Of a DNA stretch of 55,511 nt, positions 12,844 through 42,406 are shown piece by piece. The stretch comes from Gemmiger formicilis (lineage in GTDB: Bacteria > Bacillota > Clostridia > Oscillospirales > Ruminococcaceae): the NCBI RefSeq assembly GCF_016900095.1, contig NZ_JACJJP010000021.1, forward strand, positions 1 through 55,511. The letters are read 5' to 3'. The notes under the pieces are model-generated. The model did not search any database and had not been told where the DNA came from. It saw nothing but the letters and a program-made list of their open reading frames with translations. The stretch's first letter is position 1. Every line of letters begins with the position of its first letter. A program made the position numbers and the translations under genes.

Positions 12844-13215
12844 TTATCGCGGCGGGTCGCCGGCATGCCAACGGCTGCTCAGCATCTGCAGGGCCCGCTT
12901 TTCCAGGCGGGAAATATACGACCGGCTGATGTGGAATTGCTGGGCCACCTGCTGCTGGGTCAGGGGCGGCTGACGGTCCAGACCGTAGCGCAGGGTCAGA
13001 ATCCGCCGTTCCCGTTGGGGCAGGGAAGCCACCAACCCCCGCAGCCGTCTGGCCAGGTCCCGTTGTTCGCAGTCGTCCTCCATCACCCCGTCGTCGGGCA
13101 GCACATCCCCCAGGGTCAAAGCGCCCCCTTCCCGGCTGCTGGCTTCCAGCGGCTCCTGCAAGGATACCACGGTGCCTTCCCGCCGGATGTGCCGCAGATG
13201 CATGCGGATCTCATT
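12844..13215 (-). CDS. sigK: 3' half of split sigK (sigma regions 3-4)
   Basis: Codons from the shared AAT (13215-13213) to the stop encode 122 further residues. EIRMHLR and VSLQEP match the end of region 2 and region 3 of sigma-K/E factors. RERRILTLRYGL followed by TQQQVAQQFHISRSYISRLEKRAL is region 4 with its helix-turn-helix. This part has no start codon or ribosome binding site of its own; upstream in the same frame lies the out-of-frame 3' end of the recombinase. Joined to 42406-42069 it gives a continuous 235-codon frame. In its present state it cannot make a sigma factor. Confidence 0.95.
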   Translation of the reverse strand, partial: NEIRMHLRHIRREGTVVSLQEPLEASSREGGALTLGDVLPDDGVMEDDCEQRDLARRLRGLVASLPQRERRILTLRYGLDRQPPLTQQQVAQQFHISRSYISRLEKRALQMLSSRWHAGDPPR

Positions 13216-13225
13216 TGCTATCCTC
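13204..13225. other. attachment site at the sigK 3' junction
   Basis: Plus-strand layout is GCGGATCTCA (sigK side), TT core (13214-13215), TGCTATCCTC (element side). It shares the core with 42059-42079, whose element-side arm GAGGATAGCA is the exact reverse complement of this one. The recombinase stop codon (13211-13213) lies inside the site. Confidence 0.88.
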
Positions 13226-15031
13226 ACCCCAAGGGGTCTCGGCTGGAATATCGTGCGAGGTTTCTTCCTCCTCGTAATCCACGTCCCCGAAGGGCTCCAG
13301 ATCTTCGGTGTCCTCCTCGGCGCCCTCCGGATTGCGGATGTCCAGGGCGGGCAGCACGTCGGCGGCATCCCGCCAGTCCACATCCTCGTCCACCGCGCCG
13401 AACAACACCACATGGGCGTACTGGCCATCCCAGATGACCTTGCGTACCACCGTGCGGATGGCCGCCCGCTTCTGCTCCACCGTCATCTCGTCGATGCCGT
13501 CCCGGAACACCGTGAGCAGCTGCCGCATGAGGTCGAACTCAATGCCGCTGAGAGCGTGCTGGGCGGTCAGCCCTTCCAGCTCAGTGATGCGGGCCTGCAG
13601 CTCGGTGTCCTGGGCGTGGAGCTCCTCCAGCCGCTTTCGTACATGGATGGCCACCGTGCTGTCCCCGAAGTCCGCCAGCGAATCCACCAGGGCGTTGATC
13701 TTGCGCTGGGTCTCCGCCTGCTGCTGCCGCAGGTCCTCCAGCCGCTTGTCGTATTCCTCCCGGTTGCCGGTGTAAAACCGCTTGCTCTTTTCCAGCTGGG
13801 TCAGGAAGGTGCTGTCGTTGCTGGCCAGGCTCTTGACCTGCTCCACGATGGCGGCGTCCAGCAGATTACCGTGGGCGTTGCGCCGGTTGCATAGACTGCG
13901 CTTGCTGCGCTCCTTCATCTTGCAGACGTAGGTGTAGATGGGCTTGCCCTCCGCCGTAAATCGCTTGGAGAGTTTGGGGTACATCCGGTTGCCGCAGCGG
14001 CACCAGAGTAGCCCGGTGAGCAGGGCCTCGTTGCTGCGGGGCTTGCGGTAGCCCTTGGATTTATTCCGCTCCAGGGATTCCTGCACTTTGATCCAGGTTT
14101 TGGCCGGGATGAGGCCCGGATGTTGCCCCACCGAGACGATCCACTCGCTGGTGGGCAGATAGACGGTGGCCCGGCCTTTCTCCTGGTCGGTGCGGTTGTA
14201 GGCCAGAATGCCCCGGACGCCGTCGAACTCCTCCGGCGCCGAAAAGAGGTCGGCCTGCTTCTCCACAAAGTATTGGTAGGCGTCCTGGTCGGCGATCAGG
14301 TAGACCGGGTTCTGCAAAATCCCCCGTATGGAAAACCGGGTGAAGTTGCGCCCGGTCTTGGTCTTGATGTGCTGGCGCAGCAGCTCCGCCTCGGTCATAG
14401 TGAGGGAGTCGGTCTCGATGTACAGGTCGTAGATCTTGCGGACGATGTCGGCCTCCTCGGGGATGACCTTCAGCTTGCAGGCCCGCTTGCTCTTGCCGTC
14501 CACCGTGATGGTCTTGACCGCCTCCGAGGTGTAGCCGGTGGGGGTGGTGCCGCCCAACCAGCGGCCGGTCTTGGCCAGCTCGTGCATGTTGTCCCGGATG
14601 CGCTCAGCGATGGTCTCCCGCTCCAGCTGGCTGAACACCGAGGCAATGTACATCATCGCCCGGCCCATGGGGTTGGAGGTGTCGAAGCTCTCCCGGATGG
14701 AGACAAAGTCGATTTCCAGCCGCCCCAGTTCCTCGATGAGGGCGGAGAAGTCGCTGATGTTGCGGCTGATCCGGTCCAGACGGTAGACCACCACAGCCTT
14801 GAACTGGTGGTCCCGGGCGGCTTTCATCATCCGTTTGAAGTCGGGGCGGTTCAGGTTGCCGCCGGAAAAGCCCTCGTCCTCATACACCTTGGCCCCGTCT
14901 GCATAGGCATCCCCGAAGGCGGTGCGGATGTACGCCCGGCACAGCTCCACCTGGTTGCCGATGCTCTCCCCCTTGCCGGTAAAGCGGGATTTGCGGGAAT
15001 AGATGGCAATAACATCCTGGTTCTTTGGCAT
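13211..15031 (-). CDS. large serine recombinase, SpoIVCA-like
   Basis: This 606-aa protein has an N-terminal resolvase domain with YSRKS (catalytic Ser15 in the Y-x-R-x-S motif), TGKGESIGNQ, YEDEGFSGGNLNRP and YRLDRISRNISDF. Next come a recombinase domain (about 160-330), a zinc ribbon (C-R-C at about 346-348 and further Cys pairs near 373 and 384) and a coiled coil (about 410-500). AAAGGAG lies 6 nt before the ATG. Its stop codon overlaps the attachment site, so after excision the frame loses its stop codon. It is the likely excisionase/integrase that acts on sigK, comparable in role to SpoIVCA. Confidence 0.95.
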   Translation of the reverse strand: MPKNQDVIAIYSRKSRFTGKGESIGNQVELCRAYIRTAFGDAYADGAKVYEDEGFSGGNLNRPDFKRMMKAARDHQFKAVVVYRLDRISRNISDFSALIEELGRLEIDFVSIRESFDTSNPMGRAMMYIASVFSQLERETIAERIRDNMHELAKTGRWLGGTTPTGYTSEAVKTITVDGKSKRACKLKVIPEEADIVRKIYDLYIETDSLTMTEAELLRQHIKTKTGRNFTRFSIRGILQNPVYLIADQDAYQYFVEKQADLFSAPEEFDGVRGILAYNRTDQEKGRATVYLPTSEWIVSVGQHPGLIPAKTWIKVQESLERNKSKGYRKPRSNEALLTGLLWCRCGNRMYPKLSKRFTAEGKPIYTYVCKMKERSKRSLCNRRNAHGNLLDAAIVEQVKSLASNDSTFLTQLEKSKRFYTGNREEYDKRLEDLRQQQAETQRKINALVDSLADFGDSTVAIHVRKRLEELHAQDTELQARITELEGLTAQHALSGIEFDLMRQLLTVFRDGIDEMTVEQKRAAIRTVVRKVIWDGQYAHVVLFGAVDEDVDWRDAADVLPALDIRNPEGAEEDTEDLEPFGDVDYEEEETSHDIPAETPWGEDSK

Positions 15032-15100
15032 GGTGGGCTCCTTTCTGTATTAAGTGATAGTCTTTATTGTAGTATAACAGAAAGTAACGTTTTACACAAC

Positions 15101-15134
15101 AAAAAAATGCCAAGATATGTAAAAAATCTTGGCA
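15101..15134 (-). terminator. terminator upstream of the recombinase
   Basis: On the minus strand TGCCAAGAT (15134-15126) pairs with ATCTTGGCA (15116-15108) and is followed by seven T residues (15107-15101). It would insulate the recombinase from transcription of the IS21 region. A diverged copy is at about 21002-21037. Confidence 0.7.
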
Positions 15135-15264
15135 ATTAAATTTGTGTAACCGTGTTGTTTCGATTCCGGAAAAGTTTCTGTTTTTTCAATGAATGGATTT
15201 AAAACAGCATCGTGTTCTTTCCCAGTTTTGTGGGCTGCTTCTTTTTATTGAACCCGCTTATAGC

Positions 15265-15944: not shown

Positions 15945-16145
15945 TCAACTTTCTTCAGGAACAGGAATGCCGTTCTCTGTCAAGATGTTCTCCAACTGTC
16001 GAATCCGCTCGCGCTGTCGTTGGAGTTCTTTCTCATCTGCGTAAAAGTATTCCATCGACTCACGCTCCATCTCGTTGTAGCAGGCCCGTTCCAGTTCTAA
16101 AACCATACATTTTTCCTCATCGCAAAGATATGGGCGGTCACACAT
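15945..16145 (-). CDS. small coiled-coil protein within the IS21 element
   Basis: This is a 66-aa protein (start MCDRPYL at 16145; an ATG three codons upstream is possible) rich in Glu, Arg and Gln, with a probable coiled coil (EKELQRQRERIRQLENIL). Its start overlaps the 3' end of istB by 8 bp, so it is probably translated with it. A short hairpin (AGCTCTGC/GCAGAGCT, about 15907-15937) with TTTT follows. This is not a standard IS21 gene; its function is unknown. Confidence 0.5.
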   Translation of the reverse strand: MCDRPYLCDEEKCMVLELERACYNEMERESMEYFYADEKELQRQRERIRQLENILTENGIPVPEES

Positions 16146-16920
16146 CCTGGCCACCGCCTTCCCGAGTGGCCTTCAAGCCCTTGCGTTCCCGCATCGAGAC
16201 TCGGCCATCCACCAGAACCTCATAAGCGTTGTGGATAATGCGGTCCATAATGGCTTCTGAAACGGGGCTGTCAGATTCCGGGTTGGGATCAATCCTGGTG
16301 TACCAACCCTCAGATTCGTACTGCGTGCAAAAGATCGTAGACTTGTGGCACCGCGCCTCCACAATTTCCAGCATATCATAGGATTCTTGCGGGGACAGCG
16401 GACGAATCAGCCATTCGTCCAGAATCAGCAGGTCTTTCTTCTTGTACGATTCAAGCACCTTTTTCAGTGTTCCACCACTGCGGGCAATGCTCAGTTCGTC
16501 CAGCAGCTCTGGCATACGGATGTACTGCACCTTCTTGAAACGGCGGCAGGCGGCATTGCCCAGGGCACAGGCGATGTAAGTCTTGCCGTTGCCAGAGGCT
16601 CCCTTGAGGATAATGTGGTGGCCTTCGTCAATGTACTGGCAGGTGGCAAACCGCAGCATCTGTGCCTTGTCCAGCTTTCGGTCCTCGTGGTATTCAATGC
16701 CTTCTACAGTGGCAGACGGCACGGCGAAGCGCGCGTTGCGGATAAATCTGTTCAGTTTGTTGCTCTGGCGTCGGTTCCATTCCGCATTTACCAGCAAGCC
16801 CAGGCGCTCCTCGAAGCCCAGTTCATTGAACGTGGGGTCTTTCAACTGGTTGGCGAACTCCGCTGCCATAGCGGTCATCTTCATTGCCGTGAGCATATCC
16901 ATCGTTGCCTGGTTCAGCAT
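16138..16920 (-). CDS. istB: IS21 helper ATPase IstB
   Basis: This is a 260-aa AAA+ ATPase that loads and activates the IstA transposase. The Walker A motif GASGNGKTY lies at about 104-112, Walker B LLILDEWL at about 154-161, and VEARCHKSTIFCTQY follows. The ATG overlaps the istA stop codon by one base (TGATG), so translation is coupled. The length is normal and the gene appears intact. Confidence 0.95.
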   Translation of the reverse strand: MLNQATMDMLTAMKMTAMAAEFANQLKDPTFNELGFEERLGLLVNAEWNRRQSNKLNRFIRNARFAVPSATVEGIEYHEDRKLDKAQMLRFATCQYIDEGHHIILKGASGNGKTYIACALGNAACRRFKKVQYIRMPELLDELSIARSGGTLKKVLESYKKKDLLILDEWLIRPLSPQESYDMLEIVEARCHKSTIFCTQYESEGWYTRIDPNPESDSPVSEAIMDRIIHNAYEVLVDGRVSMRERKGLKATREGGGQDV

Positions 16921-18470
16921 CAGCGGTCACCTCCCTTCCGGAAGTAGGCCGCGCCGCGGGTAATGCCGTAGCTATTGGCTTTGGGCTGCGACAGTTGGCT
17001 CTCGGCCTTGTCCGGCTTGTCCAGGTCATTTTTCAGAATGCTGGCAATGGTGCGCAGCGAGGGCGTGGTGCTGTACGCCAGAGTTTTGCCGCAGGCTGCC
17101 TCCAGCCGCTGTTTGCCGTACCGCTGTTCCAGTTTGGTCAGACCAGCGCAGGCCTTGTAGCCCTGCTCGGCGGCCTTACCGGACTTCAGGAAGTGTTCGG
17201 CTACCTTCTCGGTCATAGGACCGACCGACATCGCCCAGCGGCTGAACTCGTCAGCGTTGTAGGTGAGATATTTCTGGTGCTCCGGCGGCATATGCTCGCG
17301 CTTCACCAGCGGATCACGCTGCCGGGTCTGCAGCCGGCGGTGGCTGGCTACACGGCTGCCGTGGTAGAATACCTCTACCGTTGTTTTAGTCACGCGGATG
17401 TCCACGCGCTCGCCAATCAAGTTATAGGGAACAGAATACTTGTTCCTGCCATCCGTAACAAGATAGTCGTTGGCGACCTTGGCAACCGACCAGACGGCCG
17501 GTTCAAACGCACTGACCGGCAGCGGCAGCATATAGGGCTTCTCTTCTTCCAGATAGGCACTTCGGCGGCAGCCAGCCATCTGCTTGAACGGGCGGCTGTT
17601 CAACTCATCCAGCTTTTCAGCAACTGCCTCATTCAATTCCCGCAAAGAAAAGAATTTGCGGTCGCGTAGAGCGGCCACGATCCATGTTTCGGCAAAGCGG
17701 ACGGATGCCTCTGCCGGACTCTTGTCCTTCGGCTTGCGGACACGTGCCGGTACGATTGCGGTACCGTAATGCTCAGCCAGTTCCTGGTAACTGCGGTTCA
17801 GAATCACATCGTACCGGGTGTTGGACAGCGTGGCCGTTTTGCAGTTGTCAGGGATCAGCAGCCGTGCAACACCGCCGAAGAAGTCAAAAGCGTGGACATG
17901 GCAGTTCAGCCAGTTCTCGGTTTTCATGTCGTCGCAGGCTTCCGCATAGGTGTAGTAGCTGCAGGGCAAAACGGCAACAAACAAATAAGCGGCACTTTGT
18001 TCCCCGGTAACCGGGTCCTGGATGGGAATGGTATCTCCGGCCCAATCTACCTGCATGGCATCTCCCGACTTGTGCTGGATGCGCATGGTCGCTTTTGTAA
18101 TGCGTGCCCAGCGGCGGTACCGCTCGCCAAACTGAGTACTCATGTACGGCCTTTTGCCCGCCTCCTGACACTTCGCGCAGTATTCTTCCCACAGCAGCGT
18201 CAGGGTCACGCCCGACCGTGCCTGTTCGCGGTGGATGTACGGATAGTCGGGCTCAGCATATTGACTGGATGCTTTGTGCCTGTTCGGAAAGAGAAGCTGT
18301 TCCAGATCGGCATTGGCGACATCGTCGGAGAGGGGCCAGGATATGCCTTGTTCCTTTGCTGCCTGCAGTACATCTCGCACCGTATGTCTGGAACAGTGTG
18401 CCATTGATTCAATGGTTCGCTGGCTGTACTGAAGACTGCTTAACCGCAAGATCTCCCGATAATTTGTCAT
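16920..18470 (-). CDS. istA: IS21 transposase IstA
   Basis: This 516-aa DDE transposase has an N-terminal helix-turn-helix (MTNYREILRLSSLQYSQRTI), then an rve integrase core with MQVDWAGDT (first Asp), LIPDNCKT (second Asp) and SPAEASV (Glu). The start at 18470 has GGAGG 7 nt upstream. It is followed by istB with overlap. The gene is intact, so this IS may still be active. Confidence 0.95.
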   Translation of the reverse strand: MTNYREILRLSSLQYSQRTIESMAHCSRHTVRDVLQAAKEQGISWPLSDDVANADLEQLLFPNRHKASSQYAEPDYPYIHREQARSGVTLTLLWEEYCAKCQEAGKRPYMSTQFGERYRRWARITKATMRIQHKSGDAMQVDWAGDTIPIQDPVTGEQSAAYLFVAVLPCSYYTYAEACDDMKTENWLNCHVHAFDFFGGVARLLIPDNCKTATLSNTRYDVILNRSYQELAEHYGTAIVPARVRKPKDKSPAEASVRFAETWIVAALRDRKFFSLRELNEAVAEKLDELNSRPFKQMAGCRRSAYLEEEKPYMLPLPVSAFEPAVWSVAKVANDYLVTDGRNKYSVPYNLIGERVDIRVTKTTVEVFYHGSRVASHRRLQTRQRDPLVKREHMPPEHQKYLTYNADEFSRWAMSVGPMTEKVAEHFLKSGKAAEQGYKACAGLTKLEQRYGKQRLEAACGKTLAYSTTPSLRTIASILKNDLDKPDKAESQLSQPKANSYGITRGAAYFRKGGDR

Positions 18471-18619
18471 TACGAAACCTCCAATTGATTTAGTCACAGC
18501 TTGGCTGTGCTAAACCAATTATAAGGTTTTGGGGCTTCAGTGCGTGAAAGTGGGGCTAAAACTCCGGCAAGGTGGTGCTAAAACTGCGTGCAGATGGGGC
18601 TGGGATGGCGATTTTTGCA

Positions 18620-19021
18620 CCGGACGGAATAAAAGCTGCGGCTGGCAGCCATGCCAAGGGCGCAGGCTAAATAAGTCTTTCCGGCTCCAGTGGCTCCCAA
18701 AATGATGACATTGTGTGCTTCCTGGAGGTAGGTGCAGGAAGCCAGGCGCAGGATCTGCTCCCGGTCCAGCCTTCGTTCCGGGTGGTACTCAATATTCTCG
18801 ACACAGGCGGCGGGATCCGCGTAGCCAGCGTTGCGGATGAGCCGGGTTAGACGGTTGCTTTTTCGGGCACTCCACTCTGCGTCTACCAGCATGGCAAAGC
18901 GATCCTCAAAGGACACCGCTTGGAACTGCGCATCCTCCAGTTGGGCGGAGAAGGCCTCCGCCATGGCGCCCAGGCGCATTTCATGCAATTTTCGTACCGT
19001 TTCATTGCTCAGCATGGTCAT
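18620..19021 (-). pseudogene. 5' part of a second istB, disrupted by the IS
   Basis: The frame (ML/MTMLSNETVRKLHEM...) covers the N-terminal domain and Walker A (GATGAGKTY) and stops at SFYSVR, where the IS inverted repeat begins. The missing part continues at 15752. The ATG overlaps the upstream istA stop codon. Confidence 0.9.
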
Positions 19022-20556
19022 TCCCCCCTCTTGTAATAGCCGGCGCCCCTGGTAAACTTATGGGCTTTGGGCTCTTCCGGCTTGGCCGGAGCATTCTTAT
19101 CCAGCAGCTTGTCCTGCCCGGATTTCAGAATGGACTGGACGCTTTTCAGGCTGGGGGAAGTGGTGTAAGAGAGAGCTTTCCGGCAGGCGCTCTCCAGCCG
19201 CTGAGGGGAATAGCGATCCGCCAGTTTCAGCAGGGCCATGCAGGACTTGTAGCCCTGCTGCTCCACCTTGTGGGCGGAGAGGAAAACCCGCACCACAGCA
19301 GCGGTGTGCTGGCCAATCTGTTCCGCCCAGCGGATGAAACGCTCGCCGTTCCATTGCAGGTAGGTCTGGTGGTCCGGCGGCATGTGGTCCTCCACCGTGC
19401 TGTACTGATTGGGACGGCCATGGAGACGCAGGTGAGAGGCAATTCGGGTACCAGAGAAGAAGATTTCTACTGTGGTCCGGGTAAGGCGCACATTCACTTG
19501 CTGCTTGATATACTCATACGGCACGGAGTAGTTCATGCGCTCCACACTGATATGGTAATTGTACTGGACAGTGGCGACCTTCCAAACAGCCAGCTCAAAC
19601 GGCGTAGCAGGAAGAGGCAGCAGAAACAGCTTCTCGTCCTCAAAGCAGGACGCCCGGCTACCCTCACGTTTTTGGAAAGGCTTATGGTTAAAGGCTTCCA
19701 GCTTCTCACGGATTGCCTGATTCAGTTCCGTGAGGGACAGAAACTTGCGGTTGCGCAGAGCAGCCAAGATCCAGGTAGAGACCACGCCAACGGATCCCTC
19801 TACAAAGGCTTTGTCTTTGGGGCTGCGGGGACGGGCTGGAAGAATAGCGATGCCATAGTGCTCCGCCATCTCCTGGTAGGACTTGTTGAGCACAGTCTCT
19901 GTCCGGGAATTCTTGACCACACCGGTCTTGAGGTTGTCCGGTGTGAGGATGCGGGTGACTCCGCCAAAATACCGGTAGGCGTTGACATGGCCGGTGATCC
20001 AGGCCTCCTGCTTCATATCCAGAAAGGCCTCTGTGTATGCATAGCCGCTGTATGGCAGCACCGCTACAAACAGATATGCTTCCAGCCGCTCCCCGGTGTC
20101 TGTGTCCACCAGAGCTGCCGTCTGGCCAGCCCAGTCCACCTGCATGGTTTCACCAGGCTTGTGTTCCAGATGCATGGTAGCTTTGGTTTTGTGGATATAG
20201 TCCGCATAATACTTGTTGAACTGGGTGGATTTGTAGGGCAGCTCGCCGCTTTGACGACACTGCTCGCAGTATTCCACCCACAGAAGGCTCAGGGTGACGC
20301 CGCTCTTCTGCATCTCTCGGTGCGCCCACTCGTAGTCTGGCATCTTGTATTGTTGGCCCAGCGCAGTGGAAGGATACAATTTCCGAGCAACTTCTTCTGT
20401 GCTGTAGTTCTTGATCTTGCTCCAGGAAAGATCCTGCTCTCTGGCACGTTGCAGAGCTGCTATGACAGTGCTCCGCGCACAGCCGCAGCTTTCTGCGATG
20501 CGAGTGTTGTTGATTCCCAGACTGTGAAGACGGAGAATCTCCTTATAGTTGGTCAT
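19018..20556 (-). CDS. istA: IstA transposase of the second IS21 element
   Basis: This 512-aa transposase has the same layout as the first: an N-terminal helix-turn-helix (NNTRIAESCGCARSTVIAAL), MQVDWAGQT, LTPDNLKT and KAFVEGSV acid residues. AGGAGG precedes the ATG at 20556. It is clearly diverged from the first copy, so the two elements are different IS types. Its helper istB is broken, so it is probably immobile unless helped in trans. Confidence 0.93.
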   Translation of the reverse strand: MTNYKEILRLHSLGINNTRIAESCGCARSTVIAALQRAREQDLSWSKIKNYSTEEVARKLYPSTALGQQYKMPDYEWAHREMQKSGVTLSLLWVEYCEQCRQSGELPYKSTQFNKYYADYIHKTKATMHLEHKPGETMQVDWAGQTAALVDTDTGERLEAYLFVAVLPYSGYAYTEAFLDMKQEAWITGHVNAYRYFGGVTRILTPDNLKTGVVKNSRTETVLNKSYQEMAEHYGIAILPARPRSPKDKAFVEGSVGVVSTWILAALRNRKFLSLTELNQAIREKLEAFNHKPFQKREGSRASCFEDEKLFLLPLPATPFELAVWKVATVQYNYHISVERMNYSVPYEYIKQQVNVRLTRTTVEIFFSGTRIASHLRLHGRPNQYSTVEDHMPPDHQTYLQWNGERFIRWAEQIGQHTAAVVRVFLSAHKVEQQGYKSCMALLKLADRYSPQRLESACRKALSYTTSPSLKSVQSILKSGQDKLLDKNAPAKPEEPKAHKFTRGAGYYKRGE

Positions 20557-21100: not shown

Positions 21101-21724
21101 TCAACGAATAGAATGGCGGACCTTCCACGCGACCCAATAAGCTACGCCGCCCAAAAGACCGCCTAGGGTATTGTAGAACAAGTCTGATAACTGGAATGTA
21201 CCCACTCGCAGGAAAAGCTGCAAAAATTCGATGGTCAAGGAAAAGAAAAAGGCGGCCTCTGCACTTTTAATCGCAAGACTTTTCAGAGAAACAACTTTTA
21301 CCAGCTTTTCCTTCGTGGTCCACATGAGCAAGGCCGTAAAAGGAAACATCAGGATTATATTCTCGAAGCACTCTGTTGTCAGTTCCTTAGTTCCATCCGA
21401 CGAAACTTTCCATATGCCCCAGCCTCCCATAACATCCGATAACGGATTAAGCCAGAGATTCCGGTTCAAGAGTGTCCGGAACAGGATCATAGCTGAAAAG
21501 AAAGCCAAAAGAAATAACTTTCTGAAAAAGCAATTGGTTCTAAACTCAATAACCCATGTTCTTAACGCCTCTTTCCAGCCCTTTCCCGTGTTTAAAGGAT
21601 GATAGGCATACAGGTAAACAAACTGCGCCAAAAACGCCAACAGCAACGCAAATCCAAAAGGCTCGTAAATCGCTGTTAAGACATTGGTTATGACTTTCTT
21701 TAGAATCTCCAATAATGCTTCCAT
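21101..21724 (-). CDS. VanZ-like membrane protein
   Basis: This 207-aa protein has about five membrane helices. The C-terminal half carries the VanZ-family pattern: ENIILMFPFTALL, then EFLQLFLRVGTFQLSDLFYNTLGGLLGG (a Glu before LQ, and D-x-x-x-N-x-x-G). VanZ proteins are linked to teicoplanin resistance and to cell-envelope lipids. Here it stands alone between IS remnants and the exopolysaccharide operon, so its specific role is unknown. Confidence 0.8.
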   Translation of the reverse strand: MEALLEILKKVITNVLTAIYEPFGFALLLAFLAQFVYLYAYHPLNTGKGWKEALRTWVIEFRTNCFFRKLFLLAFFSAMILFRTLLNRNLWLNPLSDVMGGWGIWKVSSDGTKELTTECFENIILMFPFTALLMWTTKEKLVKVVSLKSLAIKSAEAAFFFSLTIEFLQLFLRVGTFQLSDLFYNTLGGLLGGVAYWVAWKVRHSIR

Positions 21725-23321: not shown

Positions 23322-23322
23322 T

Positions 23323-26570: not shown

Positions 26571-26696
26571 TTATATCCTCTCACATAGAATATTTTATAA
26601 ATTTAACTCAGTTTATCTATCGGTCAACATTTTTAGAGATGCCTTATGTTTTTCTCAATAAGGATAAGAGCAACAAAACTATATCCAAACCAAATA

Positions 26697-27818: not shown

Positions 27819-27910
27819 TCTTACTTTCATCCCTTTCACATCCACATAATACACATCATAGTTTTTCCTTCGTTCAACCTTATTGAAGTAATAGTACCCG
27901 TGATATAATT

Positions 27911-30637: not shown

Positions 30638-30642
30638 CTTAA

Positions 30643-31734: not shown

Positions 31735-32091
31735 TGATTTGTCCTCTCTTATTAGTTTTTCTAATGATTTGACCCGTATGAAACGCCTTCTAAAGCGAAA
31801 CATTCTAATTACTGTGGCCACCCTACCTGATAAGCTTTACGAATCTTATCTCTGAATTGCTTACTCATTCTTCAATCCATTAAACGGTTTCTAATCATGT
31901 TCTGTATTAACTAGATAAACTATATAACCCGAATTACAATTTGCCCATTTTTTCTTGTTAATCAATTCATTATTGAGCCCAAAATCATCTAATCATTTAC
32001 TTACTTTTTTAACACAATCAGTCTGAAATGCTTTATACACAATAAAAAGTCATGATTTCTCTTGCATGTCATGTGATAATAGCAATATTAT
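31735..32091. other. intergenic gap within the exopolysaccharide operon
   Basis: This is 357 bp of AT-rich sequence with no recognisable gene, promoter or terminator. It may be the scar of a lost or exchanged gene. Confidence 0.4.
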
Positions 32092-33189: not shown

Positions 33190-33339
33190 GAGTTCCTCCC
33201 CCATTTTCAATGCTCTAGACACTACTTATTTTTCGTGCATACGCTTTTTATCATTTGTATTTTCTTATGCGAGACCAATTTTTCTTCTATTGCTTTCGCC
33301 AATCGCCAGCTATGTAAATTTTAGTACATGAAAGACTTT

Positions 33340-34482
33340 TTAGGATTTTTCGTAAAGAGATAATATTCTTTGAGTAATATCGTCCCATTCATATTTATGG
33401 CAAATAAAATCTGCCGCTGCATCTTTATATTTTTGGACCATTGCTGGGTCGTCGCAAAGCCTTTGTAATTTTTCTTTCAGGTCTTCCACGTTACTCTTTT
33501 GGAAGGTGACAGCCTTATCCTCCACCACCTCTGCGCATTCCGCTATGTCAGATACCACGCAGCAATTTCCGTAACTCATAGCCTCTAGCAAACTGAGGGG
33601 CATTCCTTCCAAATCAGAAGGCAGCAAATAAAGATAGGCGTTGCTGTATAGTTCTTCCAACATCTGCCCGGCCACAAATCCCGTGAAGATAATCCTGTCA
33701 TTCCCGGCAGCAAGGGCTTGAATCTCCCGCATAAAATCGTCAGTATCCGAGGAGCCTCCAGCAATTACTAACTTTTTATCAGTATGTAATTCCTTATAGG
33801 CTTGAATCAAATAACGAAGACCTTTTTCTGGAACAATGCGGCCCAAAAATAGAAGATATCCATCCTTATCAATCCCGAATTTATTTTTGATCAAATTTGC
33901 CTTGCGCAACACTGGCCGATTCACGCCATTCGGGATAAAAAGAGTCTCTCTGCCATACGTTTTCCGGAAGTATTCCTGCACGCCTTTGCTCAGCACAATA
34001 ATCTCATCCGCATACTTGACAGCCATCTTTTCACCTAGATGGATATACTTGGAGCCAAATCCATTCTGCCATTTTTCTCGCTGCCAGTCCAAACCATGAA
34101 TGGTTACCACACACCGCTTTCCAAAAAGCTTAGGAAGCCAAATCATCGCACAAGGACCCTCAGCATGGAAGTGTACCACATCGTACTTTCCAAAAGCGGC
34201 TTGCAATGCCGCAAAGAAACTAGAGGTCATAGCTGCAAGACCCTTTTTGTCCAAAGTGGGAACGGTTATAAGGCGCACCCCTTTATACTGACTTATCTTC
34301 CTAGTATCGAACTCCTTACCACTTACATGGTGTCCTCCACGATTAAAGCAAGTAACGGAATAGCCCAAAGCCGCCATTCTGGTGGACAACTCCTCCACCA
34401 CAATCTCAATGCCGCCCTCGCGGGATGGAATCCGCTTGTGGCCAAGCATTGCTATCTGTAATTTTTCTTTATCCTTTTTCAA
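33340..34482 (-). CDS. DUF1972-type glycosyltransferase, probably a rhamnosyltransferase
   Basis: This is a 380-aa GT-B enzyme and the first gene of the operon. The N-terminus LGHKRIPSREGGIEIVVEEL is the DUF1972 signature found in early-acting transferases such as the capsular rhamnosyltransferases of streptococci. The donor domain shows IPNGVNRP, FLGRIVPEKGLRYL and PSDLEGMPLSLLEAMSYG. As first gene it may act right after the priming sugar, but no priming transferase is encoded nearby. Confidence 0.9.
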   Translation of the reverse strand: MKKDKEKLQIAMLGHKRIPSREGGIEIVVEELSTRMAALGYSVTCFNRGGHHVSGKEFDTRKISQYKGVRLITVPTLDKKGLAAMTSSFFAALQAAFGKYDVVHFHAEGPCAMIWLPKLFGKRCVVTIHGLDWQREKWQNGFGSKYIHLGEKMAVKYADEIIVLSKGVQEYFRKTYGRETLFIPNGVNRPVLRKANLIKNKFGIDKDGYLLFLGRIVPEKGLRYLIQAYKELHTDKKLVIAGGSSDTDDFMREIQALAAGNDRIIFTGFVAGQMLEELYSNAYLYLLPSDLEGMPLSLLEAMSYGNCCVVSDIAECAEVVEDKAVTFQKSNVEDLKEKLQRLCDDPAMVQKYKDAAADFICHKYEWDDITQRILSLYEKS

Positions 34483-35257: not shown

Positions 35258-35884
35258 TCATTTCTTCAGATAGTACCGCCGCACCGTCTGCAACGCCGTC
35301 TTGTCCGTGGCTTTTCCGCGGGAGACCGACAGGTGAAAATGCCGTGCCGTTTCCGCCACGGAGTGCTCCTTATCGTCGGTAAAACCAAACCGGAAAAACA
35401 GCCAAGTGCGCAGCCGGGCACCGGATTTTTGCAGGGCGGTGCGCACCTCCCGGATGGTTTCTTTCCGCAGATAAATCCGTTCCGGGTCCTGCTGGTAGGG
35501 GTCTGCAACAAAGTAGGAAAGCGGTCGCTGATCTTCTTGCCGCAGACTGTCCAGCCACACCAAGTCATTGGCATGGCGGCCCTCAAAACGGCTTTGAGCC
35601 GCAGCGACAACATCCAGCATGGCGTTGCGGATGGCGGGAGCTGCATAAGACAGGAATTTATTGCCGTAAGACGCCTCAAACCGGTCCACACATCCGTCCA
35701 GTGCAAGGCAGCCCTCCTGACAAAGGTCCTCTTCCTCGATTCCCAACGCCCTGCTCCAGTCGGGATTTTTGCCCCAGATGGAATGGGCCAGCTTGCGCAC
35801 AAAAGGCAGGTTGTTTTCCACCAGCTGCTCCCGTGCCCACCGCTGTCCGTCCCGGGCCAGAGCACACAGTTCTTCATTCGTCAT
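35258..35884 (-). CDS. sigma-70-family factor of mobile-element type
   Basis: This is a 208-aa protein. Region 2 is seen as ARDGQRWAREQLVENNLPFVRKLAHSI and EEEDLCQEGCLALDGCVDRFEASYGNKFLSYAAPAIRNAM. Region 4 at the C-terminus is weak (VAETARHFHLSVSRGKA). The start ATG 35884 overlaps the upstream XRE gene by 11 bp. It is unlike sigK and resembles sigma-like proteins of Firmicute plasmids and conjugative elements. It may drive genes of the element itself. Confidence 0.75.
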   Translation of the reverse strand: MTNEELCALARDGQRWAREQLVENNLPFVRKLAHSIWGKNPDWSRALGIEEEDLCQEGCLALDGCVDRFEASYGNKFLSYAAPAIRNAMLDVVAAAQSRFEGRHANDLVWLDSLRQEDQRPLSYFVADPYQQDPERIYLRKETIREVRTALQKSGARLRTWLFFRFGFTDDKEHSVAETARHFHLSVSRGKATDKTALQTVRRYYLKK

Positions 35885-36743
35885 GGTCAGTTGTTTCTGC
35901 ATGTTCTGTATCCACCGCAAGATTTTCAAATAAGGCGATAAAGGCGGCCCGCAGCTGTTCCAGCACGGCCCGGTCCTTGAGCGGAAGATCTTTCAGCACA
36001 TCCACCAGGGCATCCGCCACTTCTTCCGGCTGCAGGGGCGTCTGCACAGCGTCCTGCCCCTTGCGCAGCTTGGCATACAGCTCCTCTGCCGTCTGTTTGG
36101 TCAGCAGCGCAGCCCGATCAATTTTGAGGGAAGCAGTCTCGGCCACCATGTTCCGCTTGATTTCCTTGATGCTGAGCAAAAACTGCTCCTGGAGGGCATT
36201 GAGGTTTGGCTGACTCACAGGAATTTTCAAAATTTCGGCCCGGCGTGCCGCCTGGTAAGCGGCTGCCTTTCGCTGTTTGCTCCACTTTTGTACTTTCGCC
36301 ATTTCTTTGACGGCGGAGGACAGCACCTGGTTGCGGGCTGCATAGCCTGCGGCGATGGCACCGGAAAAGTATTCCGCTGCCAGTTCTGTCACAAGGCCGA
36401 ACCGGGAATTTTCCAGCAGCAGATTGACCACCCGGGAATCCACCCGACCCGTGTACAGATTCCGTGCTGCCTGCACCGAGAGTCCCAGTTCCCCGATGTC
36501 GTAGTTGATGCGGCCCCGGTCATCGCTTTCCCCCAGCAGAAAATCGGTGGACACCTGAAAGATTCGGGCAATGGAGATCACATTGTCCGCACTGAGCTTA
36601 TCGATTTTGCCGCACAGGAACCGGCTGAGAGTCCCTACCGTCATCCCGGTCCGGGCTGCCAGCTCCTGTTGGGTCATGGATTTCTCTTTCATCAGGTCGA
36701 TGATTCGTTCCCGCGCATCACCGGGCAGATAGGTCTGTTCCAT
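35874..36743 (-). CDS. XRE-family regulator with long C-terminal domain
   Basis: This 289-aa protein has an N-terminal helix-turn-helix (MTQQELAARTGMTVGTLSRFLCG, about 23-45). A helical domain of unknown function follows. AGGAGG precedes the ATG by 8 nt. It is divergent from the primase gene, with 203 bp between, and is translationally coupled to the sigma-like gene. It likely represses the replication/mobilisation module. Confidence 0.82.
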   Translation of the reverse strand: MEQTYLPGDARERIIDLMKEKSMTQQELAARTGMTVGTLSRFLCGKIDKLSADNVISIARIFQVSTDFLLGESDDRGRINYDIGELGLSVQAARNLYTGRVDSRVVNLLLENSRFGLVTELAAEYFSGAIAAGYAARNQVLSSAVKEMAKVQKWSKQRKAAAYQAARRAEILKIPVSQPNLNALQEQFLLSIKEIKRNMVAETASLKIDRAALLTKQTAEELYAKLRKGQDAVQTPLQPEEVADALVDVLKDLPLKDRAVLEQLRAAFIALFENLAVDTEHAETTDHDE

Positions 36744-36946
36744 ATGTACCGCCTCCTTGCGTTCATTATAAAAAAGAGTCCTCTATATATCGTGACAAAA
36801 AATGTCGATTTTTGGCCACTTCCCTTTGCATTTTTGCAATTTTTTGTTTTGCTGAACCTTGTTTTTTGCATTTATGCCGGATTTGGGCGGTCCGCACCGA
36901 TTTTTCCGTATCTTTGTATAGACAACGGAAAAAGGAGGTGTCCTCC
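36744..36946. promoter_or_regulatory. divergent control region with T-rich repeats and hairpin at the primase start
   Basis: The region 36795-36872 is T-rich with repeated TTTGCATTTTT/TTTTTTGCATTTA stretches, possibly an origin. At 36934-36946 GGAGG-TGT-CCTCC forms a 5-bp perfect dyad that includes the Shine-Dalgarno site of the primase, with the ATG immediately after. Confidence 0.45.
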
Positions 36947-38272
36947 ATGTGCAAGGACACGGAGCCCCGGGCTCTGCCGGAAGACTCCGACTCGCCCAAA
37001 TGGTTTGACGGCAAAAAGGTGATCGAAATCGCCTTCTGTGAGGAATTTCTGACCCGGCACCCCATGTGCTGCATTCACGGCCGCTTCTTCACGGCGGACG
37101 GGCCCATTCCGGACGATGTGGTGCGCAGGCTGATCTATGAGGAATTGAAAGCACATGCAGTGAGCGGGGTGGGCAAGGCGGTGGCCACTTTGCTGGATGT
37201 GCTGCGGATGGAGTGTTATTCGCCCGGGCTGCCGCTGCAGACCGACCGCATCCATGTGGCCAACGGCACGCTGTTTTTGGACGGGCGGTTGGAGCCTGCC
37301 AAGGAATTCTGCCTGAACCGGCTGCCGGTAGAATATCACCCCGATGCCCCGGAACCCAAGGCCTGGCTGCGGTTTGTAGAGGAGCTGCTCTACGACGAGG
37401 ATATTCCCACCCTGCAGGAGTACATGGGCTACTGCCTGCTCCCCACTACCAAAGCCCAGCGGATGCTGTTTCTGATCGGACGTGGAGGCGAGGGCAAAAG
37501 CCGCATCGGCCCCGTGATGCGGGCGCTGTTCGGCACGGCCATGAACACCGGCAGTCTGAGCAAGGTGGAGACAAGCCCCTTTGCCCGGGCTGACCTGGAA
37601 AACAAGCTGGTCATGGTGGACGATGACATCAAACTGGAAGCACTGCCCCAGACCCACATCATCAAGGCCATCGTCACCGCTGAACTGCCCATGGACCTGG
37701 AGCGCAAAGGAAAGCAAAGCTACCAGGGCAATATGTTCGTGCGGTTCATGGCTTTCGGCAACGGGGTGATGAAGGCCGCCAACGACCGCAGCGAGGGTTT
37801 CTTCCGGCGGCAGCTGATCCTCTCGGTGCGGGAACGCCCCGACGACCGGGTGGACGACCCGTATCTGGCCGAAGCCCTCTGCACCGAGGCGGAAGGCATC
37901 TTCCTCTGGTGTGTGGAAGGACTGCGGCGGCTGCTGGCCAACCGCTACCGCTTCACCGTCAGCGCCCGCACCCAGGCCAACCGGGAGTCCGCCGTCCGGG
38001 ACAGCAACAACGTGGTGGAGTTCATGGCTTCCACCGGCTATATCCGGCGCCGGGCGGATGCCGAGATCACCTCCCGGGTGCTCTATGCCATCTACCGGCT
38101 GTGGTGTACCGACAATGCCTACCAGCCGTTATCGGCCAAAAGTTTCAGCAATTACCTGTCCCAGCATGAGCGGGTATACAGCCTGAGCCACACCAACACC
38201 GTGCGCAACGCCGCCGGAAAACGGGTGTGGGGATTCACAGGCGTTGAAGGGCTGGTGACGCCGCCGGATTGA
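36947..38272 (+). CDS. D5/P4-type primase-helicase
   Basis: This 441-aa protein has a D5_N-like region (about 60-165) followed by an SF3-type helicase domain with Walker A GRGGEGKS (178-185) and Walker B LVMVDDDIKL (about 219-228). Motif C-like FMAFGN and a C-terminal winged-helix-like domain complete it. The primase polymerase part seen in full P4-alpha proteins is absent, so it is the helicase half. AAAGGAGG lies 8 nt before the start. It should initiate replication of the circular element. Confidence 0.88.
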   Translation: MCKDTEPRALPEDSDSPKWFDGKKVIEIAFCEEFLTRHPMCCIHGRFFTADGPIPDDVVRRLIYEELKAHAVSGVGKAVATLLDVLRMECYSPGLPLQTDRIHVANGTLFLDGRLEPAKEFCLNRLPVEYHPDAPEPKAWLRFVEELLYDEDIPTLQEYMGYCLLPTTKAQRMLFLIGRGGEGKSRIGPVMRALFGTAMNTGSLSKVETSPFARADLENKLVMVDDDIKLEALPQTHIIKAIVTAELPMDLERKGKQSYQGNMFVRFMAFGNGVMKAANDRSEGFFRRQLILSVRERPDDRVDDPYLAEALCTEAEGIFLWCVEGLRRLLANRYRFTVSARTQANRESAVRDSNNVVEFMASTGYIRRRADAEITSRVLYAIYRLWCTDNAYQPLSAKSFSNYLSQHERVYSLSHTNTVRNAAGKRVWGFTGVEGLVTPPD

Positions 38273-38613: not shown

Positions 38614-39558
38614 ATGGACAAGACCCAACACGCCATTTTGCGTTTTGCCAAGTACAAGGGTCCGGAGATCAGCCGCATCGAAGCCCACAACGAGCGCACC
38701 AAAGAAACCTACGCCAGCAACCCGGATGTGGACACCGCCCGCAGCAAGCAGAACTTTCACCTTGTCACGCCGGAACGCAGGTACCGGGCCGAGGCCGAAC
38801 GGCAGATCACCCAGGCGGGCTGCCGGACCCGCAGCGACAGCGTCCGGGTGGTGGAGGTGCTGTTCACCGCCAGTCATGACTTCTTCAAAGGCAAAAGTAA
38901 GGGGGAAATACGGGCCTTTTTTGAGGAGTGCATGGCCTTTCTGGCCCAGCGCCAGGCCCCTGCCACCTATCTTTCCGCCGTGGTGCATATGGACGAGAAA
39001 ACGCCCCATATGCACCTTTCTTTTGTCCCGCTGACGGCGGACGGGCGGCTGTCGGCCAAGGAGATCGTGGGCAACCGCCAGAAGCTGACCCAATGGCAGG
39101 ACGCCTTCTGGGAGCACATGGTCAAAAAGTACCCGGACCTGGAACGCGGCGAGAGTGCCAGCAAGACCGGGCGCACCCACATTCCGCCCCGCATCTTCAA
39201 GCAGGCCACCCACCTGAACCGCCAGCTGGATAAGATTTTGCAGCTGCTGGCCGATACCAACGTCTGGAACGCCAAAAAGCGGGCCGCCCAGCTGGAAACG
39301 GCGCTGCGGAAATTTTTCCCCGAAATGGAGGACTTTCTCACCCAGACCAAGAAGTACGAAAAGGCCATCCAGGGTCTGTCCGCCGAGAAGGAGCGGCTGA
39401 AACAGGAACTGGACCAAAGCAAAGAAACGCAGAGGAAACAGAAAATGAACGAATACCGACTGGAAGCCGACTACGCCAATCTGCTGCGCAAGTTGGAGCG
39501 CATTCCGCCCGAACTGCGCAGACAGTTTGACACATCCCGCCAACAGAAAGAGAGGTAA
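38614..39558 (+). CDS. MobV-family relaxase (plasmid recombination/mobilisation)
   Basis: This 314-aa protein has an N-terminal Pre/Mob domain with the metal-binding motif HMDEKTPHMH (125-134), the hallmark HxDE..PHxH of MobV. Typical MobV upstream motifs and a C-terminal coiled coil (about 240-300) are also present. AAGGAGG is 6 nt before the start. It nicks oriT and pilots the strand when a conjugative helper is present, which would make this element mobilisable after excision. Confidence 0.93.
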   Translation: MDKTQHAILRFAKYKGPEISRIEAHNERTKETYASNPDVDTARSKQNFHLVTPERRYRAEAERQITQAGCRTRSDSVRVVEVLFTASHDFFKGKSKGEIRAFFEECMAFLAQRQAPATYLSAVVHMDEKTPHMHLSFVPLTADGRLSAKEIVGNRQKLTQWQDAFWEHMVKKYPDLERGESASKTGRTHIPPRIFKQATHLNRQLDKILQLLADTNVWNAKKRAAQLETALRKFFPEMEDFLTQTKKYEKAIQGLSAEKERLKQELDQSKETQRKQKMNEYRLEADYANLLRKLERIPPELRRQFDTSRQQKER

Positions 39559-39651
39559 CAGCATAGCGAACCGGAACAAAGCCGTGGCGCATATGAGACA
39601 GGCACTGCACCATAGAATGCACCAGATGACAAAAAACGGGAGGTGGACCAG

Positions 39652-39906
39652 ATGAGAACCAGCGCACCCATCAAGGTAATTGTACATTACCCCAAGACCG
39701 AGGAAGGCAGGCAGGAACTGGCCCGGCGGGTCGCGGACGTCCACGCCGATTTTGTCATCAGTTCCATCAACAAACTGGACTGCCCCATCAAGCAGAAGCT
39801 GGAGCTGCTGCAGGCGGTCATCGACACTACCAAGGGGACGTATAAAGCCCCCGAAGCCGAACAGGGGCAGAAGCCCAGGAAAAAGCACCAGGAGATGAGC
39901 CTGTAA
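39652..39906 (+). CDS. small protein downstream of the relaxase
   Basis: This 84-aa protein starts at ATG 39652 with GGGAGGTGG upstream. It begins with a beta-strand-like VIVHYPKT and is followed by helices rich in Ala and Lys, with a charged tail. It may be a mobilisation accessory protein; the function is unknown. A strong terminator follows. Confidence 0.6.
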   Translation: MRTSAPIKVIVHYPKTEEGRQELARRVADVHADFVISSINKLDCPIKQKLELLQAVIDTTKGTYKAPEAEQGQKPRKKHQEMSL

Positions 39907-40288: not shown

Positions 40289-40825
40289 ATGAAGGTAGTT
40301 TGTTTTGGGGATTCCAACACCTACGGATACGACCCACGTTCCTGGCTGGGCGGGCGGTATCCGGCGGACAGCCGCTGGGTGGACCTGCTGGCCCAAAAGA
40401 CTGGCTGGAACGTTGTCAATCTTGGGGAAAACGGCCGGTGTATTCCACTGCGGCCGATCACTTTGCCAGCGGATGCCGATCTTGTGATCGTCATGCTGGG
40501 CACCAATGATCTGCTGCAGGGCTGCACGCCGGAAAAGACCGCGGACCGGATGAAGCGCTTTCTGCAAAGTCTGCCACTGGCACCAGAGCACATCCTGCTG
40601 ATTGCCCCACCGCCTATGGCTCCAGGTGAATGGGTGACCGACTCATCTCTGATAGAATCTTCCCATCTGCTTGCTAAATACTACCATGAGCTGGCCGGGA
40701 AGTTGGGCATTCAGTTTGCCGACGCGGGGAACTGGCATGTAACGCTCGCCTATGACGGCGTACATTTTACCGGGCAGGGCCACCGGGCCTTTGCCGAAAA
40801 CCTTGCACAGGAGGTTTGCCGATGA
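40289..40825 (+). CDS. SGNH/GDSL-family hydrolase
   Basis: This is a 178-aa protein. Block I is FGDSNTYGY (nucleophile Ser9), block III GTND and block V DGVHFTGQGH with the catalytic Asp and His. No signal peptide is present, so it is probably cytoplasmic. Such enzymes are esterases or deacetylases; it could remove acetyl groups from sugars. The start follows AAAGGAG. It overlaps the rhodanese gene by 4 bp. Confidence 0.9.
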   Translation: MKVVCFGDSNTYGYDPRSWLGGRYPADSRWVDLLAQKTGWNVVNLGENGRCIPLRPITLPADADLVIVMLGTNDLLQGCTPEKTADRMKRFLQSLPLAPEHILLIAPPPMAPGEWVTDSSLIESSHLLAKYYHELAGKLGIQFADAGNWHVTLAYDGVHFTGQGHRAFAENLAQEVCR

Positions 40826-41211
40826 AACGACTTGTCTCTTTGTTTTTTGTCCTTGTTGCCCTGTTGACCGGCTGCGGCACATCTGCGACTTCCGGGGAAA
40901 GCAGCTACCAGCAGATCAGTCAGGAGGAAGCCAAGGAGATGATGGACACCCAGGATGTACTGATTCTGGATGTGCGTGAGCAGGAGGAATACGACAGCGG
41001 GCACATTCCTGACGCGCTGTTGCTGCCGGTGGGGACCATCACCGAGGAATCCGCCGCCGAGGTCATCCCGGACAAGGACACGACCATTCTGGTCTACTGC
41101 CGCAGCGGAAACCGCAGCAAAACCGCAGCCAAGACGCTGGCCGGGTTGGGGTATACCAATATCTACGAGTTCGGCGGGATTACCACCTGGCCATATGAGG
41201 TGGAACAATAA
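40822..41211 (+). CDS. rhodanese-domain lipoprotein
   Basis: This 129-aa protein has an N-terminal signal with lipobox LLTGC (Cys at about 18), so it is a membrane-anchored outer lipoprotein. The rhodanese domain has LDVRE...EYDSGHIPDALLLP and active-site loop YCRSGNRS with the persulfide Cys. AGGAGG precedes the start at 40822. It is coupled to the hydrolase gene and probably handles sulfane sulfur outside the cell. Confidence 0.9.
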   Translation: MKRLVSLFFVLVALLTGCGTSATSGESSYQQISQEEAKEMMDTQDVLILDVREQEEYDSGHIPDALLLPVGTITEESAAEVIPDKDTTILVYCRSGNRSKTAAKTLAGLGYTNIYEFGGITTWPYEVEQ

Positions 41212-41252: not shown

Positions 41253-41444
41253 AAGGAAAAAGTCTAAAATGCGCCAACCGTGCAGTCCGATGAATTTACG
41301 TTCCTCACCCCAACCTGTCACCCTACCTTCCGCCTGATACCATTCGTTTCCCAAACTGGAATTTCGTGCGATTTCCACCATACAAAATACCCCGGAGAGA
41401 TTGGCTATAATGGCCGTCCCCTCCGGGGTGCTTTTTCTGTTGTG

Positions 41445-42044
41445 CTACGTCTGCTCCCGGAAGTACCGCTCCCAGCACTTCTTGCTGATGTTTTTTGTCC
41501 CTGTCTCCCAGGCGCGGAGGGAGCTTTCGCTGATGCCGGTTTTGCGGGCAAAGGCGGCACGGCTCAGACCTGCCCGCTGGCGGAGGGCCAGAATCTGCCG
41601 GGCCTGTCCCTCGTACAGAAAGCGGTTGTACCCGTCCAGCAGGTCGGTCACCGGCACGCCGTACAGCTCTGCCAGCCTGTCCATAACGGCGGCGGGGGTA
41701 TACTCGCAGGCGCCGGTCTCTAGGTCGATGTAAAAGGGCGTGGTAACGCCCACCCGCTCGGCCACCTCCCGCTGCAGCAGGCCCAGATGCAGGCGGCACC
41801 ACCGCAGCCGGTCGGGGACGCTGCCAATCTCCTCATAGCTTTGGTACTGCCGGGTAAAACGCTGGGCCTTGGGCAGGTTGGGTGGCGCGATGAGGCGGAA
41901 CCGGTGCACAGCCAGGGGCGCGAAGCGGGGCTTGCCGTGGTCGGTGCGGCAGAGTATGTAGAAATCTGGTGAGAGCTTGGCGAAGACCTTCCATTTTGGC
42001 AAAGTCCCGAAAATCCGTTCTGCTTTTCCAGCCGGAATTCCCAA
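41445..42044 (-). CDS. XRE/HTH protein at the right end of the skin-like element
   Basis: The frame has two helix-turn-helix units. The first is RLRWCRLHLGLLQREVAERVGV followed by DLETGACEYTP and a conserved LYGVPVTDLLDGYNRFLY linker. The second is LRQRAGLSRAAFARKTGISESSLRAWETG at the C-terminus. No good start with a ribosome binding site is visible: TTG 42044 or GTG 41909 are possible. The same frame is continuous with the recombinase frame across the rejoined attP, so after excision a fusion could form. It may be a directionality or excision control factor. Confidence 0.65.
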   Translation of the reverse strand: MGIPAGKAERIFGTLPKWKVFAKLSPDFYILCRTDHGKPRFAPLAVHRFRLIAPPNLPKAQRFTRQYQSYEEIGSVPDRLRWCRLHLGLLQREVAERVGVTTPFYIDLETGACEYTPAAVMDRLAELYGVPVTDLLDGYNRFLYEGQARQILALRQRAGLSRAAFARKTGISESSLRAWETGTKNISKKCWERYFREQT

Positions 42045-42058
42045 ACAGGCGTTTTTGA

Positions 42059-42079
42059 GAGGATAGCATTTTCAATGCA
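42059..42079. other. attachment site at the sigK 5' junction
   Basis: Plus-strand layout is GAGGATAGCA (element side, 42059-42068), TT core (42069-42070), TTCAATGCA (sigK side). Combined with 13204-13225 the excised circle would carry arms GAGGATAGCA and TGCTATCCTC around AA. Confidence 0.88.
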
Positions 42080-42406
42080 CTGGCTGGCATAGCTGGCAAA
42101 CCGGACCTTGCGTTCGGGGCGAAACGTGTCCACCGCCTTGATCAGCCCGATGGTGCCGATGCTGATCAGATCGTCCTGGCCGCTCGGGGTACTGTAGTAT
42201 TTCTTGACCACATGGGCCACCAGCCGCAGATTGTGGCTGATGAGTCTGTCCCGGGCAGCTTTGTCGCCCACTGCCATGGCGGCGAAGGCCGCCTGCTCCT
42301 GGGCAGGGGAGAGCGGCCGGGGAAAGCTGCCGCTTTCCAGATGAAGCGCCGCGTACCAGATATGCGCAGCGGCCTGCTGCAAAAAGACCCACAAAACCGA
42401 AAACAT
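42068..42406 (-). CDS. sigK: 5' half of split sigK with pro-sequence
   Basis: ATG 42406 after GGGAGGTGG opens 113 codons up to Asn (AAT 42070-42068). A hydrophobic pro-sequence (FSVLWVFLQQAAAHIWYAA) precedes FPRPLS, matching the cleavable pro-region of sigma-K. The body continues with DKAARDRLISHNLRLVAH, DDLISIGTIGLIKAVDTF and FASYASQCIEN, which is region 2 with its -10-recognition helix. In the integrated state the frame runs on into element DNA as unrelated residues. The promoter region and this half stay on the chromosome. Confidence 0.95.

Follow-up and report, generated by a model that had tools for sequence, protein, structure and literature searches.

A split sigK gene in Gemmiger formicilis points to a skin-like, mobile element family among gut bacteria

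The window analyzed here, a stretch of 55,511 nucleotides (nt) of Gemmiger formicilis DNA (NCBI RefSeq assembly GCF_016900095.1, contig NZ_JACJJP010000021.1, positions 1 to 55,511 of the forward strand), carries the sporulation sigma-factor gene sigK in two pieces, with an element of ~28.86 kb between them that interrupts the gene at codon 113. Three features define the locus:

42069..42406, minus strand: sigK 5′ half, encoding a hydrophobic pro-sequence and region 2, up to codon 113
12844..13213, minus strand: sigK 3′ half, encoding regions 3-4 and the stop codon
13211..15031, minus strand: large serine recombinase (LSR), 606 amino acids (aa), with Resolvase, Recombinase and Zn-ribbon domains (Pfam)

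A sequence-only reading of this DNA had proposed that the two pieces, some 28.9 kb apart on the minus strand, constitute a complete sigK split by a skin-like element. Splicing 42406-42069 to 13213-12844 (both minus strand) reproduced the proposed frame of 708 nt, comprising 235 codons plus a stop. The claimed continuity from region 2 to region 3 is borne out by the NCBIfam SigK model NF004471, the best match of both halves; because the 5′ half aligns to model positions 8-112 and the 3′ half to positions 114-226, the two are consecutive. Inspection by eye agrees that the N-terminus of the joined protein is hydrophobic and pro-sequence-like, and the recombinase said to lie within the element, directly beside the 3′ half, is present there with the three domains listed. 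A second intact sigK elsewhere in the genome had been named as a possible refutation; no second complete copy was found among the sigma matches of the window genome. Another sigma gene follows directly downstream of the one other strong match, C12:3479; we read the pair as sigE-sigG, since further genomes of the genus show this layout in addition to a separate sigK. An assembly artefact is ruled out as the cause of the split, because the arrangement recurs in other genomes, including the single-contig genomes G274 and G117. The split reported earlier is confirmed, and its interpretation is very likely right in its main point.

The lack of an uninterrupted sigK in relatives had been named as a second possible refutation. 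Across 35 genomes of the genus (the window genome included) searched for sigK-type matches, 26 have an intact match, one is cut by a contig end, four have a split or half gene (G000, G274, G303 and G315) and four have none; two of the 26 intact matches (G308 and G326) contain an in-frame stop within the matched range. In one member of the genus, G317 (locus L240), an intact sigK occupies the same locus and is likewise followed by the Na:Ala symporter gene, whose matched part is 93% identical; this sigK aligns to the joined window gene at 604 of 708 nt without a gap, including across the junction. Neither of these two possible refutations was borne out. The nearest gene upstream of sigK differs, being a radical SAM gene in the window and the GDSL/rhodanese genes in G317, and window positions 45333-45983 are common to the G317 upstream region at 75%. 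Synteny with the flanks of the window was slight or absent in the other fetched genomes with an intact sigK. The GDSL and rhodanese genes lie within the element in the window (40289-41211) but directly upstream of the intact sigK in G317 (L240:8765-9687), indicating that a flank segment has changed sides. A further genome with an intact gene, G304, carries an extra sigK 3′ half on another contig (L226:7489-8227), just past DNA 96% identical to window positions 20674-20985, beside the IS21 copies described below; this suggests a relic or a mixed assembly.

The two ends of the element are built alike:

42059..42070, minus strand: element end beside the sigK 5′ half, core AA then TGCTATCCTC
13214..13225, minus strand: element end beside the sigK 3′ half, GAGGATAGCA then core AA

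In the integrated state the 5′ side reads ...GAAAATGCTATCCTC and the 3′ side GAGGATAGCAAATGAG..., with a conserved core, AAATG(A), at both ends, within which the central dinucleotide of crossover would be AA (42069-42070 and 13214-13215). The attachment site of the predicted circle (attP), GAGGATAGCA-AA-TGCTATCCTC, is a 22-nt perfect palindrome of 10+2+10. Both ends carry a repeated short core with inverted-repeat half-sites, as skin elements do. Among titled genomes, where we took the best 80 of at least 579 LSR relatives, the 3′ junction could be scored in 75 loci; GAGGATAGCA precedes codon 113 with at most two mismatches in all 75, and exactly in 57. Divergent elements in the taxonomic family have related half-sites, as judged by eye.

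The association between this recombinase and sigK extends well beyond the genus. Within a sample of 297 genomes taken as the taxonomic family of Faecalibacterium and Gemmiger, 58 encode the LSR at E≤1e-60; of the 63 match rows, 30 loci were fetched, and a sigK 3′ half stands beside the LSR in every one. Of the best 80 titled loci, whose hosts include Holdemania, Tyzzerella, Mediterraneibacter, Sellimonas, Faecalibacterium longum and Acutalibacter, 73 have the 3′ half no more than 200 nt from the LSR and two have it farther away; three of the remainder have a 5′ half only (L121, inverted, among them) and two have neither, one of the latter (L115) stopping at a contig end. In a class-level sample, an LSR of the element family was found at E≤1e-100 in 48 of 391 genomes, and of 29 fetched loci other than our own, 22 have a sigK half within ~1.5 kb of the LSR and seven have none. 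At three loci (L121, L254 and L268) the LSR adjoins the 5′ rather than the 3′ half, and these elements seem to sit inverted.

Across 97 loci (4656 pairs, with three record pairs present under two ids), LSR and sigK identities are nearly unlinked (Spearman 0.10), a decoupling that excludes purely vertical inheritance. The LSRs of L080 (Holdemania) and L085 (a Lachnospiraceae metagenome-assembled genome) are 98% identical, whereas the adjoining sigK 3′ halves are 48% identical; since near-identical recombinases adjoin such dissimilar sigK genes, the elements move between hosts. Even within the genus, identity between the window and G315 drops at the core, from 662 of 700 nt on its LSR side to 243 of 361 nt on its sigK side. 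Among the five closest LSR relatives in viral contigs, a sigK half adjoins the recombinase gene in four (L274-L277), which therefore resemble sigK-integrated elements; the fifth, L278, which is cut by a contig end, has none. Judged from these comparisons, the window element belongs to a large, apparently sigK-specific and horizontally moving family.

Besides the LSR, one small gene is conserved in all complete elements, and in the window it is preceded by a candidate sporulation promoter:

39652..39906, plus strand: conserved small protein, 84 aa, predicted recombination directionality factor (RDF)
39591..39618, plus strand: sigma-E-like promoter, ATA-N17-CATAGAAT, with an AGACAG box in the spacer
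15071..15099, minus strand: possible sigma-A promoter of the LSR, TTGTGT-N17-TATACT, weak

The small protein is encoded in 30 of 30 complete elements (56-87 aa, apart from three longer predictions that arise from over-early starts) and was located in 46 of 100 sources once partial loci were added. Its distribution over the 35 genomes of the genus coincides exactly with the three that pass the LSR threshold; G315 has only a contig-end fragment of the LSR. In a comparison of seven elements, no gene listed other than the LSR is as widely common. Two open reading frames (ORFs) considered as further conserved genes, m38152 and m39687, were rejected, as they lie on the opposite strand of the small gene. 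The protein is predicted to fold as two helices (pLDDT 85.8, pTM 0.56), and an Oscillospirales phage record (L273, PV036458.1:51302-51478) encodes a distant relative (36%, E 1e-4).

Upstream of the small gene, the motif ATA-N17-[CA]ATA is found in 27 of 46 loci, compared with 641 of 20006 control windows (3%) and 4.4% of shuffles. Of the 30 elements that first brought it to notice, 20 contain it, as do 7 of 16 held-out loci, and a [GT]ACA[AG] box starts the spacer in 23 of 28 sites. The sigma-E consensus is ATA-16/18-CATACANT, and the RRACAR type of spacer box (AGACAG in the window) resembles SpoIIID sites. The motif thus suggests that the small gene is switched on by sigma-E, perhaps together with SpoIIID, and conservation and promoter together lead us to predict that its product is the excision factor.

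We consider it likely that the window holds a sigK-specific, skin-like integrative mobilizable element whose excision is licensed in the mother cell by a sigma-E-driven small RDF, restoring sigK. Outside sporulation, a sigma-A-type promoter would supply the LSR in small amounts; in the mother cell, the small protein would then be turned on by sigma-E, possibly aided by SpoIIID, allowing the element to leave as a circle and sigK to be restored, after which pro-sigma-K would be made and processed. The mother cell dies, and the element would be retained in the forespore. Because sigK is needed only in the terminal cell, it offers a low-cost home, a site from which the family could spread among gut spore-formers with any cargo it acquires, here a glycan cluster. 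SigE and a second sporulation-type sigma factor, read as SigG, are present in the window genome, as are SpoIVA and SpoIVB above cut-off.

Several observations weigh against this reading. The attP pattern of the main type was found in 0 of 396 family assemblies (divergent half-sites fall outside the pattern) and in none of the viral contigs, although assemblies from growing cells should rarely capture a sporulation event, which tempers the absence of circle junctions. The sigma-A signal of the LSR is weak, at 9 of 93 loci when 3.8% of control windows and 6.5% of shuffles also have it, and a stricter sigma-70 scan found no LSR promoter. The sigma-E-like motif was noticed upstream of the small gene, as ATA-N17-CATA, before it was tested in its broader form; it is missing from 19 of 46 upstream regions (9 of the 16 held-out), and the relatives compared are not independent of one another. 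For the small protein, searches of Pfam, NCBIfam, PHROGs and PDB returned no convincing match (the weak top hits being E 0.017 for a PDB sequence and E 5.7 in a fold search), and by computed isoelectric point it is basic in 26 of 30 elements, unlike the acidic CD1234 of Clostridioides difficile. Finally, the SpoIIID match in the window genome falls below the curated cut-off. RDFs have little sequence in common (PMC5025042).

An unlikely alternative, though the least unlikely of the three considered, is that the LSR needs no partner to excise the element at sporulation, like SpoIVCA in Bacillus subtilis, and that the small protein serves otherwise, for instance as a repressor, an antitoxin or a mobilization helper. 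In keeping with this idea, the B. subtilis skin element has no known RDF (PMC5025042), and the small protein has a weak match to the addiction-module model TIGR02574 (E 0.007, below cut-off). The sigma-E-like signal, however, lies at the small gene and not at the LSR, upstream of which the motif is at background (4 of 93), and the small protein is present in every complete element and tracks the LSR in the genus. Apart from the LSR, no other gene listed for the seven elements is as widespread.

It is rather improbable that the insertion is a host-domesticated control device, kept since delayed sigma-K improves spores, with its cargo incidental. Some support comes from C. difficile, where loss of the element by deletion makes sigma-K active too early and alters the surface layers of the spore (PMC5025042). 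Yet sigK is intact in most of the genus (26 of 35), the 4656 pairs show hardly any link between LSR and sigK identity, and the pro-sequence could by inference already time the window sigma-K. Control of sporulation, as the sequence-only reading had envisaged it, may instead follow from the timing of the mobile element as a side effect, and not be an adaptation of the host.

Relatives of the Faecalibacterium/Gemmiger type are commonly regarded as non-sporulating. This view, together with the lack of an excised form in assemblies and the stop codons inside the matched sigK half of a few relatives (e.g., G168 and G192), could be taken to mean that a mobile element has inactivated sigK, that its excision is unregulated and that the strain no longer completes sporulation; such an outcome is very doubtful, as the window halves, LSR, attachment half-sites and small gene with its promoter are all intact, the same set recurs across many genera, and SpoIVA, SpoIVB, SpoIIID and SigE are kept.

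Licensed excision by the small protein may not be the only source of directionality, as the recombinase gene itself runs into the attachment core. In the window, the LSR stop codon TGA (13213-13211) lies within the crossover core and is supplied by sigK DNA, and the opposite end of the element bears a second coding stretch in the LSR frame:

41445..42068, minus strand: double helix-turn-helix (HTH) coding stretch (HTH tail), by which a circle would lengthen the LSR by 208 aa

When the stop was scored against each element's own core sequence, the LSR frame of 25 of the 29 scorable elements was found to continue into the core without a stop; the other four end before it, and one further element was unscorable. 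The LSR ends at the sigK-supplied TGA in 22 elements; in G036, G260 and L096, where the sigK codon is AAC, it ends 32-47 nt past the core start. A homolog of the HTH tail is found at the opposite end in 17 of 30 elements, the window included, its homology beginning directly after the core and its phase relative to the core identical in all 17. In 15 of these the LSR frame continues into the core uninterrupted and in the phase of the tail; as for the two exceptions, G115 has its LSR stop 1 nt short of the core and L093 has it 59 nt short, in another phase. No stop interrupts the joined frame over at least 150 further aa in 13 elements, and that of L087 and L129 is frame-shifted. The tail is not essential, since 13 of the 30 elements do without it, and no fused LSR-tail copy was found in any fetched DNA. 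A related HTH ORF lies just downstream of some viral-contig LSRs (e.g., L300). We offer, tentatively and at somewhat less than an even chance, the suggestion that directionality has been solved twice: a small protein of a new family, made only under sigma-E, would license excision, and placement of the attachment core inside the LSR gene would mean that integration ends the LSR at the core or just beyond it and removes the double-HTH tail, which the circle restores to give the full-length LSR. If so, the recombinase would be a different protein in the integrated and free states, constituting an integration-dependent switch.

The remaining features of the element are as follows:

16138..20556, minus strand: two IS21-type istA/istB pairs
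21101..34482, minus strand: low-GC glycan/exopolysaccharide cluster
35258..35929, minus strand: sigma-factor-like ORF, E 6e-9 to the SigK model
35874..36743, minus strand: HTH protein, PHROG 34939 (unknown function)
36812..38272, plus strand: DUF5906/D5-like primase-helicase
38614..39558, plus strand: Mob_Pre relaxase, E 3e-49
40289..40825, plus strand: GDSL lipase/esterase
40816..41211, plus strand: rhodanese-like protein

The glycan cluster encodes VanZ-like, SDR, MenD-like TPP-enzyme, pyruvyl transferase, glycosyltransferase and hexapeptide acyltransferase proteins, and one product lacking a Pfam match is read as a flippase. For the sigma-like gene, an alternative ORF at 35266-35877 was set aside as its translation looks wrong; the matching frame is 35258-35929. 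Approximately 36 element ORF frames were scanned, some of them overlapping alternatives and some small ORFs lying outside the scan; no Pfam match to capsid, tail or terminase families and no conjugation (type IV secretion) genes were found among them, and the lack of structural genes leads us to reject a prophage identity. With an integrase and a relaxase on one unit, the window element reads, on gene content, as a putative integrative mobilizable element. Mobilization by a helper element would fit the movement between hosts described above. Mob_Pre and D5 are not a family trait, as neither has a tblastn relative in the 29 other complete elements.

The 30 complete elements range from 3.6 to 59.4 kb and carry varied cargo, the L144 element containing two genes and two further ORFs. 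In Pfam tallies of this cargo, which used a crude choice of ORFs, left out G104, G171 and G113 and covered the top 25 families only, REP_ORF2-G2P replication initiators matched 7 of 89 proteins scanned from small elements. The small elements of alignment A4 also encode three proteins with matches to protein kinases and one with a match to the chloramphenicol acetyltransferase family; shikimate-pathway enzymes appear in some of the larger elements (L164-L169, L177 and L109). Outside the element, window positions 4174-10222 form a second, low-GC mobile element near sigK, with a tyrosine recombinase, an HNH endonuclease and a resolvase.

In literature limited to open papers, where absence is not proof, we recognized no report of sigK elements in these gut families; what is new here comprises the element family and its mobility, along with the small gene conserved in it and its split recombinase. 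Should excision be confirmed, gut commensals would commonly remove DNA in a programmed way as they form spores. Sporulation predictors based on gene content could miss a split sigK, and the family would offer many natural, predicted pairs of LSR and small protein for studying serine recombinase reversal.

Set beside known systems, the element has several partial counterparts. Like integrative mobilizable elements, it combines an integrase, a relaxase and a replication protein, with no conjugation genes among the ORFs scanned, but its target is a developmental gene and its excision is predicted to be developmentally timed. In phages with integration-dependent immunity and in SSV-type viruses, attP lies within a gene and integration alters the protein made; there a repressor or a tyrosine integrase is altered, whereas here it would be the 3′ end of an LSR. 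As in the B. subtilis skin element, sigK has a pro-sequence, the LSR is on the element and the core measures 5 nt (PMC13141910); the B. subtilis element is, however, a 48-kb prophage-like one, and its LSR is itself under sigma-E and SpoIIID (PMC5025042), unlike the logic predicted here. The earlier claim that the cargo differs from that of known skin elements holds against the prophage-like elements of B. subtilis and C. difficile, although a non-prophage sigK insertion is already known, the 22-kb sigK island of Bacillus cereus biovar anthracis, which is excised as a circle at sporulation. That island differs in its position (nt 195), its type I restriction-modification cargo and its recombinase beside the 5′ half (PMC10745906). 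A precedent is the C. difficile skin element, which likewise splits sigK and encodes its own LSR. As described in PMC5025042, that LSR is constitutive, and excision is restricted by a 72-aa RDF under sigma-E and SpoIIID, control that the LSR does not share, matching the pattern predicted here; the same paper gives a sigma-K without a pro-sequence and a prophage-like element of 19 genes, in both of which the window differs. That 2016 paper held that skin "remains an exception in clostridia" (PMC5025042), whereas the element family described here is common in the genomes sampled.

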